The notes beneath the pieces are model-generated. The model was given only the letters and a program-made list of their open reading frames with translations, did no database searches and had not been told where the DNA came from. From Cyanobium sp. ATX 6F1 (GTDB taxonomy: Bacteria > Cyanobacteriota > Cyanobacteriia > PCC-6307 > Cyanobiaceae): DNA of 64,000 bases. The stretch is taken from the NCBI RefSeq assembly GCF_024346315.1, contig NZ_JAGQCS010000008.1:62001-126000 (forward strand). The letters run 5' to 3'. Below, piece by piece: positions 46,244 to 52,386 of this stretch. The stretch's first letter is position 1, and every line of letters begins with the position of its first letter. The position numbers were made by a program, and so were the translations under genes.

Positions 46244-46273
46244 AGCCGGGTGCTGAAAGGCGTCCGGCTTTTT
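46244..46273 (+). terminator. Probable terminator after rpmE
   Basis: AGCCGG (46244-46249) pairs with CCGGCT (46264-46269) around a 14-nt loop and runs into TTTTT. It may end most ribosomal-operon transcripts before prfA. Confidence 0.55.
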
Positions 46274-46301
46274 GCCGTTCGCAGCGGCTGCACTGATCGC
46301 C

Positions 46302-47399
46302 ATGGATGCCACCTTTCTCAGCGAGCGCCTGGAGACGGCCTGCCGCACCTTCGCCAGCCTGGAGCGGCAACTGGCGGATCCCGATGTGGCCGCCAACCCA
46401 GGGCAGCTCGAGCGCATCGCCCGGGAACGGGCACGGCTTGAGCCACTGGTCACCGACTACGAGCGGCTCAACGGGCTGCTGGGCGAACAGGGCGAAGCGC
46501 GCCAGCTGCTCCGCAACCACCGCGGTGACCCCGAGATGGAGCAACTCGCCCAGGAAGAGTTGACCGTCCTGGCAACCACCATCGCCGATCTGGAACAGCG
46601 GCTCACCCTGGCGCTGCTGCCCAGGGACCCCCGCGATGAGCGCAGCGTGATGCTGGAGATCCGGGCCGGGGCCGGCGGAGACGAGGCCGGGATCTGGGCC
46701 GGCGATCTGGCCCGCATGTACGAGCGCTACGCCCAGTCACTGGGCTGGCAGGTGGAACCGCTCAGCGCCTCGGAAGCTGACATGGGCGGCTTCAAGGAAC
46801 TGATCCTCTCGATCCGTGGCGAGGGGGTGTTCAGCCAATTGAAGTTCGAGGCCGGCGTGCACCGGGTGCAGCGGGTGCCGGCCACCGAATCCCAGGGACG
46901 GGTGCACACCTCGACGGCCACGGTGGCGGTGATGCCTGAGGCCGATCCCGTGGAGGTGCAGATCGACCCCACCGAGATCCAGATCAGCACGGCCCGTTCG
47001 GGCGGGGCCGGTGGTCAGAACGTGAACAAGGTGGAAACAGCCGTGGACCTGCTGCACAAGCCCACCGGCATCCGGGTGTTCTGCACCCAGGAGCGCTCCC
47101 AACTGCAGAACCGCGAGCGCGCGATGGCGATCCTGCGGGCCAAGCTGCTGGAGCGCCAGCTGGCGGCGGCGGCGGAGAAGGAAAGTTCCGCCCGCCGGGC
47201 CCAGGTGGGCAGTGGCGATCGCAGCGAGAAAATCCGCACCTACAACTACAAGGACAACCGCACCACCGACCACCGCCTGGGGCGCAACTTCGCGCTCGAA
47301 CCTGTGCTCCAGGGGCAACTGGGGGAGCTGATCGGCAGCTGCATCGCCGCGGACCAGCGCCGGCAACTGGAGGAGCTGGCCCAGAACGCCGCGGGATGA
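46302..47399 (+). CDS. prfA: Peptide chain release factor 1
   Basis: 365 residues. RF1 reads UAA and UAG and triggers peptide release: the GGQ loop is in [16 protein letters not shown] and the PxT recognition tripeptide in [15 protein letters not shown]. The ATG at 46302 gives [11 protein letters not shown]; an ATG at 46272 is less likely because it lies in the terminator tail. It is convergent with the HNH gene, with a 20-nt gap. Confidence 0.97.
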
Positions 47400-47419: not shown

Positions 47420-47920
47420 TCAGGCCCCGATCACGTACTTGGCCCACTCCTGGTGGGCGCCGGCGCGAATCTGGCGGGTGGCTTCGAAGTAAAGGCTGCT
47501 GATCGGGCGCCTGGGTTCCCTCGCCAAGGGCATGCCCGCTTCCCTGGGGGTGCGGTTGCCCTTGTGGACATTGCAGCGCAGACAGGCGGTGGTGACGTTC
47601 TCCCAGGTGTCGCCGCCGCCGCGGCTGCGGGGGAACACATGGTCGATGGAAAGCTGCTCCCCCTGATAGCCGCAGTACTGGCAGGAGTGGCCGTCCCGAT
47701 GGAAGACGTTGCGCCGGGTGAGCGGCAATTGCTTGAAGGGCACGCGAACGAACTGCCGCAGCCGGATCACGGTGGGGAGGTGATGGTCGGCGCGAATCAG
47801 CCGCCCGGGATCGTGCTCCAGACCCTCAGCCTTGCCCTTGAGCAGCATCACCATGGCGCGACGCCAGGTGGTGATGTTTAGGGGCTCGTAGGAGGCGTTC
47901 AGAACGAGAACGTGGCGCAT
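47420..47920 (-). CDS. HNH endonuclease family protein
   Basis: 166 residues. MRHVLVLNASYEPLNITTWRRAMVMLLKGKAE is the N-terminus shared by a widespread bacterial HNH family. The nuclease core has a CQYCG zinc knuckle, SIDHVFPRSRGG, TWENVTTACLRCNVHKGNRTP with the second CxxC. An ATG at 47944 would add eight residues. The role is unknown; its wide conservation in cyanobacteria makes a housekeeping role more likely than a selfish one. Confidence 0.9.
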   Translation of the reverse strand: MRHVLVLNASYEPLNITTWRRAMVMLLKGKAEGLEHDPGRLIRADHHLPTVIRLRQFVRVPFKQLPLTRRNVFHRDGHSCQYCGYQGEQLSIDHVFPRSRGGGDTWENVTTACLRCNVHKGNRTPREAGMPLAREPRRPISSLYFEATRQIRAGAHQEWAKYVIGA

Positions 47921-48030
47921 GCCAGTTCCACTGTTAGGCGGCATGCTAATGGGACATCGCTCAGGATCTGGTGTCGAGCGACGCCATCGGCGCCGTCGCC
48001 TTCCATCGACCCCTGAACGGCCCTGTCCCC

Positions 48031-50529
48031 ATGGCGTTGCCTGACCCCCCCGCGCTGGCGACCCTGCTGGAGGGTGACCTGCGCGGCGCCTGGGACACCG
48101 ATCAGGCCAGGGGACGCCTGCGGGCGGCTGCGATTGATTCGAGGCGGGTGCGACCGGGGGATGTGTTCTTCGCCCTGACGGGCCTCCAGAACGATGGCCA
48201 TGCCTTCGTGGAGGCTGCCCTGGCGGCGGGTGCCGGCCTGGCGGTGGTCCGGCGCGGCTGGCGGCCCGCGTCCTGTCCGCTGCCACGCCTGGAGGTGGAC
48301 TCACCCCTGGCGGCCCTGCAGGCGCTGGCGGCCTGGCACAGGCGCCGGGCCCTGGGGCGGGTGGTGGCGATCACAGGCAGCAATGGCAAGACCGTGGTCA
48401 AGGAGGCGCTCACCGCCCTGCTGGCGACGCGCTACTCCGTGGCCGCCAGTCCGGGCAGCTGGAACAGTCAGGTGGGGGTGCCCCTGGCGGTGCTGAACGC
48501 ACCCATGGGCACGGAGATCGGCGTGTTCGAGGCGGGGGTCTCCGCCCCCGGTGAGATGGCGGCCCTGGCGACGATCCTGCAACCCGATCTGGGCGTGCTC
48601 GTGAACGTGGGCCTCGCCCACATCGCCGCCTTCGGCACGCGGGCGACCACGGCCCGTGAAAAACTGCGGCTGTTCGCCTCGGTGCCGGCCCAAGGTTGGG
48701 TGATCACCCCGGACGACCCGCTGGTGGAGGCCCAACCGTTGCCCTGCGAGCGGCTGAGGGTGGGGGATCAGGCACCCCGGCTGGTGGAGCAGCGCCCCAT
48801 CCCCAACGGCACCCTGCTGACGGTGGCCTTCGAAGCAAGCTCCGTGAGCTTCCCCGTGCTCACCCGCTCCGCCCCCCTGATCGCCGACCTGATGATCGCG
48901 ATCACCGCCGCCGTCCGCCTGGGGGTCACCCCCGAAGCGGTGGCGGCCACCCTCCACGACTACTCCTTCGGTCCCACGCGCATGGAGACCTGGCGCACGC
49001 CCGATGGGGTCACGATCATCAACGATGCCGCCAGCTCTGATCCGCTCTCGGTCCAGGCGGCGCTCGACACGGTGGGCTCCTCCCCCGGTGGCCCGGGCAA
49101 GCGCATCTTCGTGTTCGGCGGCATGGGCGAACTGGGGGAACTCGATCTACGGGAGCACCGGATCATCGGGCGGGTGGCGGCGGAACGCGGTTTCACCCAT
49201 CTGGTGCTGCTGCCCCACCCCTCCCAGGCGCACACGGCGGCGGCCTGGCGCGAGGTCAAACCCGAGGCCCCTGTGCTGGAGGTGAACCTCAGCGACTTGC
49301 GCGACACCGTGCGCCAGCTGGCGGAACCCGGCGACACCCTCTTGGTCAAAGGCCCCCGCAATGAAGGGTTGGCGGCGGCGGCGCGCGCGCTCTGGGAGTC
49401 GATGGCGCCCAGGCGTTTCCTGGTGGACCTGGGGGCGATCGCCGAAAACATCGCCCGCTTCCGTTCCCTCTGCGGGCCCAGGGTCGCGATCCTGGCGGTG
49501 CTCAAGGCCTGGGCCTACGGCACCGAACTCGCGCGGGTGGCCGTAACCCTGCAGGAGAGCGGCGTCGATTGGATCGGCGTCTCGGCCGCCGATGAGGGGG
49601 CCGTAGTGCGACGCGCAGGGGTGCAGCTGCCGGTTCTGGTGATGTTGATGAACGGTGAGGAGGTGGACAAGGTGGTGCGTTACCGGCTCACACCGGTCGT
49701 CTATTCGCTTGCCTTTGCCCGCACCTTGATCGAGGGCCTGCGGGCTCTGGGGGCCAGCTGCGATGTGCATTTGGAGATCGACACCGGCATGGGCCGCCTG
49801 GGGGTGCCCCCCGCCGAGGCCCTGGCGGCCGCCCGCTTGCTGCGGGGCTCGGGGGTGACCCGCCTGGGCGGTCTGATGACCCATTTCTCCTGCGCCGATG
49901 ACCCCGCCGAAGATGGCCACAGCCAAGCTCAGCTGGAACGATTCGAGCAGGCCGTGGCGGCGATCCGCTACGAGGGCGACCCAACCGAGCCACTGATCGT
50001 CCATGCGGCTGCCACGGCGGCGGCGGTGCGTTTCCCTGCGGCCCGCTTCGACATGGTGCGGCTGGGCCTGGGGCTCTTCGGCATCCACCCTTCGGCCGCC
50101 GTCGCCGCGGCGCTCGACCTGCAGCTCGCGGTGGCCTTCGTCAGCCGCCTGGCCCAGGTGTCGCTGTGGACGCGCGGGCAGCGGGTGGGGTACGGCGGCA
50201 CCTACGTGGTGGAGGCTGAGGAGTTGCGGGTGGGCATTGTCGAGGCCGGCTACAACGACGGGGTGCCCTGGCGCCTGGCCGGGGCCGGCGTGGTGATGGT
50301 GCAAGGACACCGGGTGCGGATCATCGGGCGCATCTCGATGGATTCGATGGCCGTCGACCTCTCGGCTGTGCCCGAGGCGGCCGTGGGCGATGAGGTGCTG
50401 ATCTTCGGTGCCAGCGAAGGGCAGGAACTGCGGCCCGAGGAGGTGGCCCAGAGTGCCGGCACAATCCCCTACGAGTTGCTGGTCAACGTCGACAGCCGCC
50501 GGGTGCAGCGGGTGTTCCGGGGCGACTAA
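48031..50529 (+). CDS. Bifunctional MurF - alanine racemase fusion
   Basis: 832 residues. Residues 1-455 are MurF, the ATP ligase that adds D-Ala-D-Ala to UDP-MurNAc-tripeptide: DSRRVRPGDVFFAL, P-loop ITGSNGKTVVKE (116-121), GSWNSQVGVPL, FEAGVSAPGEM and NDAASSDPLSVQAAL. From about residue 460 the chain is alanine racemase: LAVLKAWAYGTEL with the PLP Lys about 492, EIDTGMGRLG, the second catalytic Tyr in RVGYGGTYVV (about 721), VEAGYNDGVP and GRISMDSMAVDL. The motifs resemble the MurF-Alr fusions of Bacteroidetes. A GTG at 47971 would add 20 residues. Confidence 0.9.
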   Translation: MALPDPPALATLLEGDLRGAWDTDQARGRLRAAAIDSRRVRPGDVFFALTGLQNDGHAFVEAALAAGAGLAVVRRGWRPASCPLPRLEVDSPLAALQALAAWHRRRALGRVVAITGSNGKTVVKEALTALLATRYSVAASPGSWNSQVGVPLAVLNAPMGTEIGVFEAGVSAPGEMAALATILQPDLGVLVNVGLAHIAAFGTRATTAREKLRLFASVPAQGWVITPDDPLVEAQPLPCERLRVGDQAPRLVEQRPIPNGTLLTVAFEASSVSFPVLTRSAPLIADLMIAITAAVRLGVTPEAVAATLHDYSFGPTRMETWRTPDGVTIINDAASSDPLSVQAALDTVGSSPGGPGKRIFVFGGMGELGELDLREHRIIGRVAAERGFTHLVLLPHPSQAHTAAAWREVKPEAPVLEVNLSDLRDTVRQLAEPGDTLLVKGPRNEGLAAAARALWESMAPRRFLVDLGAIAENIARFRSLCGPRVAILAVLKAWAYGTELARVAVTLQESGVDWIGVSAADEGAVVRRAGVQLPVLVMLMNGEEVDKVVRYRLTPVVYSLAFARTLIEGLRALGASCDVHLEIDTGMGRLGVPPAEALAAARLLRGSGVTRLGGLMTHFSCADDPAEDGHSQAQLERFEQAVAAIRYEGDPTEPLIVHAAATAAAVRFPAARFDMVRLGLGLFGIHPSAAVAAALDLQLAVAFVSRLAQVSLWTRGQRVGYGGTYVVEAEELRVGIVEAGYNDGVPWRLAGAGVVMVQGHRVRIIGRISMDSMAVDLSAVPEAAVGDEVLIFGASEGQELRPEEVAQSAGTIPYELLVNVDSRRVQRVFRGD

Positions 50530-50569
50530 GGGGCCTCGCAGCAGCACTGATAAGCTTTCTGGGCCCCCT

Positions 50570-50658
50570 GGAGAGGTGGCTGAGTGGTTGAAAGCGGCTC
50601 CCTGCTAAGGAGTTACAGGAGGCAACTTCTGTCGAGGGTTCGAATCCCTCCCTCTCCG
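50570..50658 (+). tRNA. tRNA-Ser (anticodon GCT)
   Basis: Acceptor GGAGAGG/CCTCTCC with discriminator G, a long variable arm typical of class II tRNA, anticodon loop CTGCTAA and T-arm GAGGGTTCGAATCCCTC. CCA is not encoded. Confidence 0.95.
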
Positions 50659-50671
50659 TTTCCAAACCCGT

Positions 50672-51601
50672 TCAAGTGGCCGTGACCTGCCCCAGGGCAC
50701 GGGCGATCGAGGGCAGCAGCGCCCCGTCGGCGGCTCGATCCGCCCCCTCACTGAACACCACCAGCAGAAAGGGCGCCTGGCCCTCGGCCTCCACGTAGGC
50801 GGCGTCATGGCGGGCCTGGCTCATCCAGCCGGCCTTGCTCCACAGCCGGGAGCCCTGCTCCAGGGCCTCCCCCAGGAAGCCATCCACCTGGTTCTCCGGA
50901 TCGGCGCGCCGAGCAACGGGATCGAGCGAGCGGGACAGGAGCGCGCGCATGCGAACGCAGGCGGGCGGAGACACCAACGCACCGGCGATCACCCCATGCA
51001 GCAGGCGCGCCGTGGCGTCGGTGCTCAGGCGGTTGCGGTTCTCCAGGTCCTCCCCATAGAACTGGCGCTCGCGGCCGAAGGGCCCATCACCCCAGGTCTT
51101 CTGGCAGGCATTGCAAGCCTCGAACTCCGGCCAGCCCAGCTCCGCGAGCCAACCGTTCACCAGTTGGCGCTGGGCCGACCAGGCCGCCAACCGCGGGGCG
51201 AGCAGATCGGGGCCGCTGGTGGTGCCGCTGAGCAAATCCACCAACAAACCCGTGGCGTCGTTGCTGGAGTCACGGATCATGTCGGCCATGGCCCGGCGCA
51301 GCTCCGGCCCCTCCTCCAGCCATTGCTGCTGCAACCAGGCCTCCACCGCCACCATGTAGACCAGCTTCACCACGCTGGCGGGATAGCGCTGGCGCGATCC
51401 GCCCCAGCTGGCCCCCAGCACCGGCAGGCCCCAGAAGGCCGCCGGCTCCAGGGCCGCGCCTCGATCGATCAAGCTTCCCTCGTAGCGCAGCCAGGTGATC
51501 GACAGCTGATCTCCCAGCCCCGGACGGCCCTCCAGCTCGAGCCGTTCGATCAACGCCTCCAGGATCGAGACCATCCCCTCGTCGGGGCGGTAGAACGCCA
51601 T
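50672..51601 (-). CDS. Serine hydrolase of the class A beta-lactamase / PBP fold
   Basis: 309 residues. RYPASVVKLVYMVAVEAWL gives the SxxK nucleophile motif, RDSSNDATGLLVDLL resembles the SDN loop, and WSKAGWMSQARHDAAYV occupies the KTG position as KAG. The ELxxxE omega-loop of true beta-lactamases is not seen, so a peptidoglycan or unknown hydrolase is as likely as antibiotic resistance. The ATG at 51601 leaves 17 nt to the divergent NlpC/P60 gene. No signal peptide is obvious. Confidence 0.8.
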   Translation of the reverse strand: MAFYRPDEGMVSILEALIERLELEGRPGLGDQLSITWLRYEGSLIDRGAALEPAAFWGLPVLGASWGGSRQRYPASVVKLVYMVAVEAWLQQQWLEEGPELRRAMADMIRDSSNDATGLLVDLLSGTTSGPDLLAPRLAAWSAQRQLVNGWLAELGWPEFEACNACQKTWGDGPFGRERQFYGEDLENRNRLSTDATARLLHGVIAGALVSPPACVRMRALLSRSLDPVARRADPENQVDGFLGEALEQGSRLWSKAGWMSQARHDAAYVEAEGQAPFLLVVFSEGADRAADGALLPSIARALGQVTAT

Positions 51602-51618
51602 CGAAGCGGCCAGAAGCA

Positions 51619-52386
51619 ATGGTGAGATTAGGCACCTTGGACCGGGGGGATCTGCCTCCCGGCACCCCGGCCGCCCTTGAGCTGCTGATTCCTGGCAGCC
51701 ACTGGCAGTTGCAGGGGGATCTGAACGGCTACAGCCGGCCCACGGGCCCTGGCCTGGCGACCCAGGCCGAAGCAGGGCGAGGCCTGCGGGTGCTCACCGG
51801 CCCCGAGCCCCACAGCGGTCGGCTGCGGGTGCGGCTGCTGGAGGACGGCTACCCCTGCTGGGTGGACCCCGCCGATCTGCTCGGCCGCGCCATGGCCCGG
51901 GGACCGTGGCAACCGCGGCTGCTGGAGTCAAGGGCGATCGAGGCTGCCATCGCAGCCGTGCTGCGCTGGGCAGATCAGGCCAGCAGGATCACGAACCAGT
52001 ACCTCTGGGGAGGCAGCCTCGGTCCCGACTACGACTGCTCCGGTTTCATCCAATCGGCCTTCGCCCGAGCGGGGGTGTGGATTCCCCGCGATGCCTACCA
52101 GCAGGAGCGGTTCTGCCAGCCGGTGGCCGTGAGGATCAGCGAGTTCCGCCTGCTCAGAGCGGGGGATCTGATCTTCTTCGGCTCACCCAGGCGCTGCACC
52201 CACGTGGGTCTGCACCTGGGCGGTGGCCGCTATCTGCACAGTTCCGGCCGCGACCACGGGCGCGATGGGCTGGGCATCGACGGCCTCAGCCCCGCCGACA
52301 CCCATCCAGTGGCGAGCCACTACCGCCCACAGCTGCGCGGTGCCGGCCGCGTGGTGCGTTGCCATGACGGAACAACGCTTGCCTAA
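51619..52386 (+). CDS. NlpC/P60 cell-wall peptidase
   Basis: 255 residues. An SH3b-like N-terminal region (about 25-90, with YSRP, GLRVLTGPEPHSGRLRVRLLEDGYPCWV) precedes the catalytic domain: YLWGGSLGPDYDCSGFIQSAF with the nucleophile Cys, then RCTHVGLHLGGGRYLHSSG with His. This resembles the cyanobacterial gamma-D-Glu-diamino-acid endopeptidases that recycle murein peptides. No clear signal peptide is seen. It is divergent from the serine hydrolase with a very short gap, so one of the two starts may lie further inside. Confidence 0.88.
   Translation: MVRLGTLDRGDLPPGTPAALELLIPGSHWQLQGDLNGYSRPTGPGLATQAEAGRGLRVLTGPEPHSGRLRVRLLEDGYPCWVDPADLLGRAMARGPWQPRLLESRAIEAAIAAVLRWADQASRITNQYLWGGSLGPDYDCSGFIQSAFARAGVWIPRDAYQQERFCQPVAVRISEFRLLRAGDLIFFGSPRRCTHVGLHLGGGRYLHSSGRDHGRDGLGIDGLSPADTHPVASHYRPQLRGAGRVVRCHDGTTLA

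Follow-up and report, generated by a model that had tools for sequence, protein, structure and literature searches.

D-Alanine is required for normal peptidoglycan; MurF adds D-Ala-D-Ala, and Ddl acts between alanine racemase (Alr) and MurF. A single gene of Cyanobium sp. ATX 6F1 joins MurF to Alr, which raises the questions of which native gene this fusion stands in for, what its MurF half contributes and where it came from. The gene lies in a window of 64,000 nucleotides (the whole stretch of DNA that was analysed; contig NZ_JAGQCS010000008.1, positions 62,001 to 126,000), in whose coordinates all features are given below.

Architecture of the MurF-Alr fusion

The frame at 48031–50529 on the plus strand runs uninterrupted for 832 aa, with MurF first and Alr second. 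An in-frame GTG at 47971 is a possible upstream start, and the alignment of relatives begins at the ATG at 48031. The Pfam domains Mur_ligase N/M/C and Ala_racemase_N/C were all detected, bearing out the statement of the first-pass annotation that one frame holds both complete enzymes. The NCBIfam model for murF (TIGR01143) scored 289.5–291.2 bits, marginally above its cut-off of 288.6, and that for alr (TIGR00492) scored 283 bits against a cut-off of 168. The TIGR01143 match delimits the MurF half (residues 35–447; 48133–49371, plus strand), in which the P-loop TGSNGKT is kept (residues 115–121; 48373–48393, plus strand), and profiles place the Alr half at residues 465–828 (49423–50514, plus strand). 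The AlphaFold model folded both halves confidently, with a mean pLDDT of 88. It predicts no long linker between them, the junction (residues 448–462; 49372–49416, plus strand) being mostly a helix at 447–458 followed by the first Alr strand. No solved structure of a MurF-Alr fusion was found, nor any publication on such fusions in the open-access literature.

The known counterpart is the bifunctional MurF/alanine racemase of Bacteroidota (NF008897/PRK11930), which resembles the cyanobacterial fusion in domain order, signature residues and the presence of a stand-alone MurF alongside. The NF008897 match is also full-length, pairing profile positions 23–819 of 822 with fusion residues 29–829 in one frame. 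However, the score of 564 bits falls below the curated cut-off of 804, compared with 1125 bits for a Bacteroidota fusion and 701 bits for a far Myxococcota fusion (L071). The cyanobacterial fusion further differs by an identity of only about 30%, its phylum, additional losses of MurF motifs and its position as the sole alr of the host. Since the score stays below the cut-off of the MurF/Alr model, automatic annotation probably names the protein only MurF or alanine racemase and thereby hides the fusion.

Distribution among picocyanobacteria

The fusion was detected in 26 of the 400 genomes of the same family that were scanned (this genome and 25 others), belonging to 3 of 59 genera, and a scan of 386 genomes across the phylum gave no instance outside that family. 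The carriers are small lake-type cyanobacteria related to Cyanobium, and Cyanobium sp. Morenito 9A2 holds the closest named relative of the fusion among the matches listed (87%). A single intact frame was present in 24 of the 26 carriers (this genome and 23 of the 25 others, one of which is a single-contig assembly), while in the remaining two, both fragmentary drafts, it was divided over separate contigs or alignment pieces. An assembly chimera of two genes was ruled out because the 25 other family genomes share the architecture. On the rpoB tree of the family the carriers are scattered, requiring 4 changes, and a single carrier clade was not rejected (AU p = 0.09). The pattern may stem from a single gain followed by losses, or recombination may have spread the gene within the family.

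The fusion occupies the alr slot

The gene sits in a conserved block, truA-rplM-rpsI-prfA-HNH(-)-X-tRNA-Ser(gct)-PF13354(-)-NlpC/P60-GT2-psaL, which was the same in the 10 genomes compared. Position X was native alr in all 4 non-carriers and the fusion in all 6 carriers as well as in this window. The upstream part of the block ends with prfA (46272–47399, plus strand), and the fixed left neighbour of the slot is a divergent HNH endonuclease family gene (47420–47920, minus strand). Its fixed right neighbour is tRNA-Ser(gct) (50569–50659, plus strand), followed by the conserved right flank of a PF13354 beta-lactamase-family gene (50672–51619, minus strand) and an NlpC/P60 gene (51619–52386, plus strand). 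The region from 47420 to 52386 is a conserved picocyanobacterial neighbourhood with identical order in all genomes compared.

The search for stand-alone genes, which the first-pass annotation had called for in this genome and which covered all carriers, gave opposite results for the two halves. A native Alr query matched the fusion alone in 26/26 carriers, whereas native murF was kept in 25/26, the exception being an 84% complete draft. Apart from the fusion, this genome (99.98% complete) encodes a single PF01168 protein, a short one-domain product of a 285-aa frame that probably belongs to the YggS type. The shared slot, the lack of native alr and the retention of native murF indicate that the fusion is an in-place, xenologous replacement of native alr, a point that the first-pass annotation had missed. 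The stand-alone MurF in fusion genomes of Myxococcota and Bacteroidota points the same way: the fusion replaces Alr and not MurF. The native picocyanobacterial Alr (e.g., L028 in G006) shares the chromosomal slot and presumably the role, but it is a single-domain protein with 32–36% identity and forms a separate clade (100).

Function of the two halves

As the first-pass annotation had read from the sequence, both PLP residues are kept: the alignment contains the PLP lysine Lys492 (49504–49506, plus strand; E. coli Alr Lys34) and the catalytic tyrosine Tyr721 (50191–50193, plus strand; E. coli Alr Tyr255). These two residues and Arg677 (E. coli Alr R209) are invariant in the alignment, and the fold of the Alr half resembles solved alanine racemases. 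On these grounds the Alr half very likely serves as the racemase of the cell.

The MurF half is less straightforward. A stand-alone canonical MurF accompanied the fusion in all 12 Myxococcota and all 14 Bacteroidota genomes that were checked, for which reason the fused half is best read as a divergent, long-separated MurF paralogue and not the housekeeping MurF. In E. coli numbering, P-loop K120, E167, K211, R317 and D332 are kept in all fused MurF domains, and H197 in 13 of the 14 cyanobacterial fusions, Asn being found in the other one. Every sampled fusion from the three phyla carries Ser for N137 and N162, Glu for A201 and Asp for N336, at positions where most stand-alone MurF proteins show little or no variation. 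The branch of near-Myxococcota and cyanobacterial fusions additionally lacks Y333, N285 and D360. All 14 cyanobacterial fusions are altered at N134, N137, N282, N285, Y333 and N336, and R435 has become Ala in 12 of them and is Arg in all six near-Myxococcota fusions. By analogy with MurD and MurF in general, the altered C-terminal motifs presumably sit close to the amino acid or dipeptide that is being added. In Mur ligase structures, the P-loop Lys, the metal-site Glu/His, the hinge Arg and the ribose-contacting acid handle ATP, Mg and phosphate transfer (PMC6085368). Purifying selection acts on the MurF half with roughly the strength seen for native murF, the YN00 dN/dS values being 0.08–0.16 for the MurF half, 0.08 for a native murF pair and 0.05–0.09 for the Alr half.

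Most likely, the MurF half is a domain of the Mur ligase type that has changed its specificity or that regulates or scaffolds the adjoining racemase. The readings that remain are altered specificity, a scaffold or regulator, and a second MurF. MurT/GatD offers a precedent, in that a Mur-ligase fold whose chemistry has changed works there with a second enzyme, but that pair is unfused and involves another partner and another subfamily (PMC6085368).

It is possible, if somewhat doubtful, that the MurF half can no longer ligate and survives solely to scaffold or regulate the racemase. Conserved residues disappear step by step along the branch, among them Arg435 in 12/14 cyanobacterial fusions, and one fusion has Asn in place of conserved His197, all of which would fit such a loss of activity. 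Strong purifying selection argues against it, as does the retention in all fusions of the P-loop, the Glu that binds Mg, the carbamate Lys, the hinge Arg and the ribose Asp. Less likely still is a fully active second MurF whose product is passed on in complex with Alr. Such metabolic coupling agrees with the retained ATP/Mg catalytic residues, the selection on this half and the TIGR01143 score slightly above its cut-off. It is opposed by the canonical MurF that accompanies the fusion in nearly all genomes checked and by MurF-conserved positions altered in all fusions, more so in cyanobacteria. Moreover, Ddl, which is needed between Alr and MurF, is encoded by a separate gene on another contig of this genome. 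The proposal of the first-pass annotation that the fusion couples D-Ala production to ligation loses ground for the same reasons, as MurF requires the D-Ala-D-Ala made by Ddl and the fused MurF motifs are altered.

A more speculative extension of the paralogue reading, which we regard as unlikely, is that the MurF-type domain of the fusions split off from the Mur ligases long ago in all phyla that have them and acts on a substrate of its own, such as one D-amino acid or a non-canonical or recycled peptide, with the attached racemase serving it directly. The fusion would then constitute a distinct pathway of cell-wall synthesis or recycling, and its acquisition by cyanobacteria would have been either the cost of the alr swap or the motive for it.

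Origin of the fusion

Trees were built for the MurF half, the Alr half and the full-length fusions, with 14 cyanobacterial fusions in each half-tree. The cyanobacterial fusions form one clade in the Alr-half tree (98), inside a 20-row set that includes 6 fusions of the Myxococcota phylum (100), and the same set of cyanobacterial and Myxococcota-phylum fusions was recovered in the MurF-half tree (99). In the full-length tree they again form one clade (98/96), sister to the fusions of G741 and G955. The native cyanobacterial MurF and Alr lie far from the fusion halves in the respective half-trees. Among the matches listed, identities within the Myxococcota phylum are graded (72, 70, 62, 55, 48, 42 and then 35–40%), and the fusions L068, L167/L219, L168, L169 and L067 span 72–48% over their full length. 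The latter share GSxNSQ, GGM, the loss of Y333 and the presence of a stand-alone MurF with the cyanobacterial fusions, but differ in gene neighbourhood and in the Arg435 of the six near fusions. The 72% and 70% matches belong to two large-genome MAGs in the phylum of 'Deltaproteobacteria bacterium HGW-Deltaproteobacteria-22'; the phylum name Myxococcota was deduced from record titles (Deltaproteobacteria, proteobacterium, Myxococcales) and the shared-phylum grouping of the records.

A mis-binned cyanobacterial contig behind the 70% 'proteobacterium' match was considered and ruled out. The contigs of G741 and G955, the two nearest genomes, have about 72% GC, lack cyanobacterial flanks and share a gene neighbourhood that is not cyanobacterial (a radical SAM gene, an acyltransferase and a YebC-like gene, by names that we assigned from the sequence), so that neither is a mis-binned cyanobacterial contig.

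Taken together, the trees and identities support acquisition by transfer from a Myxococcota lineage or from a close but unsampled relative of that lineage. The first-pass annotation had proposed transfer from Bacteroidetes. Its separate trees, now built, uphold the transfer, as neither half groups with ordinary cyanobacterial homologues, but not that source, the cyanobacterial fusions being nested in the Myxococcota series. Direct acquisition from Bacteroidota is very improbable: the fusion is widespread there and family-wide motifs are held in common, yet the Bacteroidota fusions form a separate clade in both half-trees (99–100) with identities of 28–37%, about 30%, among the matches listed, and the cyanobacterial fusions group with those of the Myxococcota phylum in both. 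Several motifs initially ascribed to Bacteroidetes (GSxNSQ, EAGxSxxxEM and ADEG) are signatures of the whole fusion family, and the Trp of LKAWAYG occurs on the Myxococcota/cyanobacterial branch alone, Phe being the usual residue at that position in Bacteroidota. Fusion of native murF and alr within the lineage is scarcely credible, because despite the exact alr locus that the gene occupies, neither half clusters with native MurF or Alr and native murF persists elsewhere in the genome.

Several further observations concern the wider family. Four Myxococcota-phylum genomes (G913, G877, G756 and G761) encode stand-alone Alr in 387-aa frames (L215–L218) that cluster with the fusions in the Alr tree, which possibly represent the state before fusion or a subsequent split. 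In another genome of the donor phylum (L223, G948), with a GC content of only 39%, a fusion and a stand-alone Alr occur together. Plasmid carriage was considered as well, and the only plasmid fusions found were Bacteroidota ones with about 28–30% identity. These (H1–H7) are labelled by PLSDB as 'vanT in vanG cluster' glycopeptide resistance, for which their full-length MurF-Alr match suggests mis-annotation. A contig of a MAG titled Streptomyces griseus carries a Bacteroidota-type fusion (L084) and is likely a mislabelled or contaminated record. One Bacteroidota fusion (L138) is interrupted by a stop close to where its two halves meet, which leaves frames of 505 and 327 aa.

Proposed history and significance

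The account that emerges, and that we consider highly probable as a whole, is the displacement of native alr by a Myxococcota-lineage fusion in a Cyanobium-like ancestor, with the Alr half as the D-Ala source and the MurF half as a selected paralogue. The MurF-Alr gene would have passed from the Myxococcota lineage, or an unsampled close relative, into an ancestor of Cyanobium-like cyanobacteria and displaced the native racemase gene between the HNH gene and tRNA-Ser. The Alr half, acting as a PLP homodimer, would now provide the D-alanine of the cell, and the MurF half would be held by selection without having replaced the housekeeping MurF.

The transfer into picocyanobacteria would thus have hit a core cell-wall locus, at which a two-domain enzyme from another phylum took the place of the gene for D-alanine supply. 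The attached MurF domain, kept despite the host's own MurF, offers a testable case for the role of the MurF half, and the same question extends to Bacteroidota, where a separate MurF was present in all 14 fusion genomes examined.
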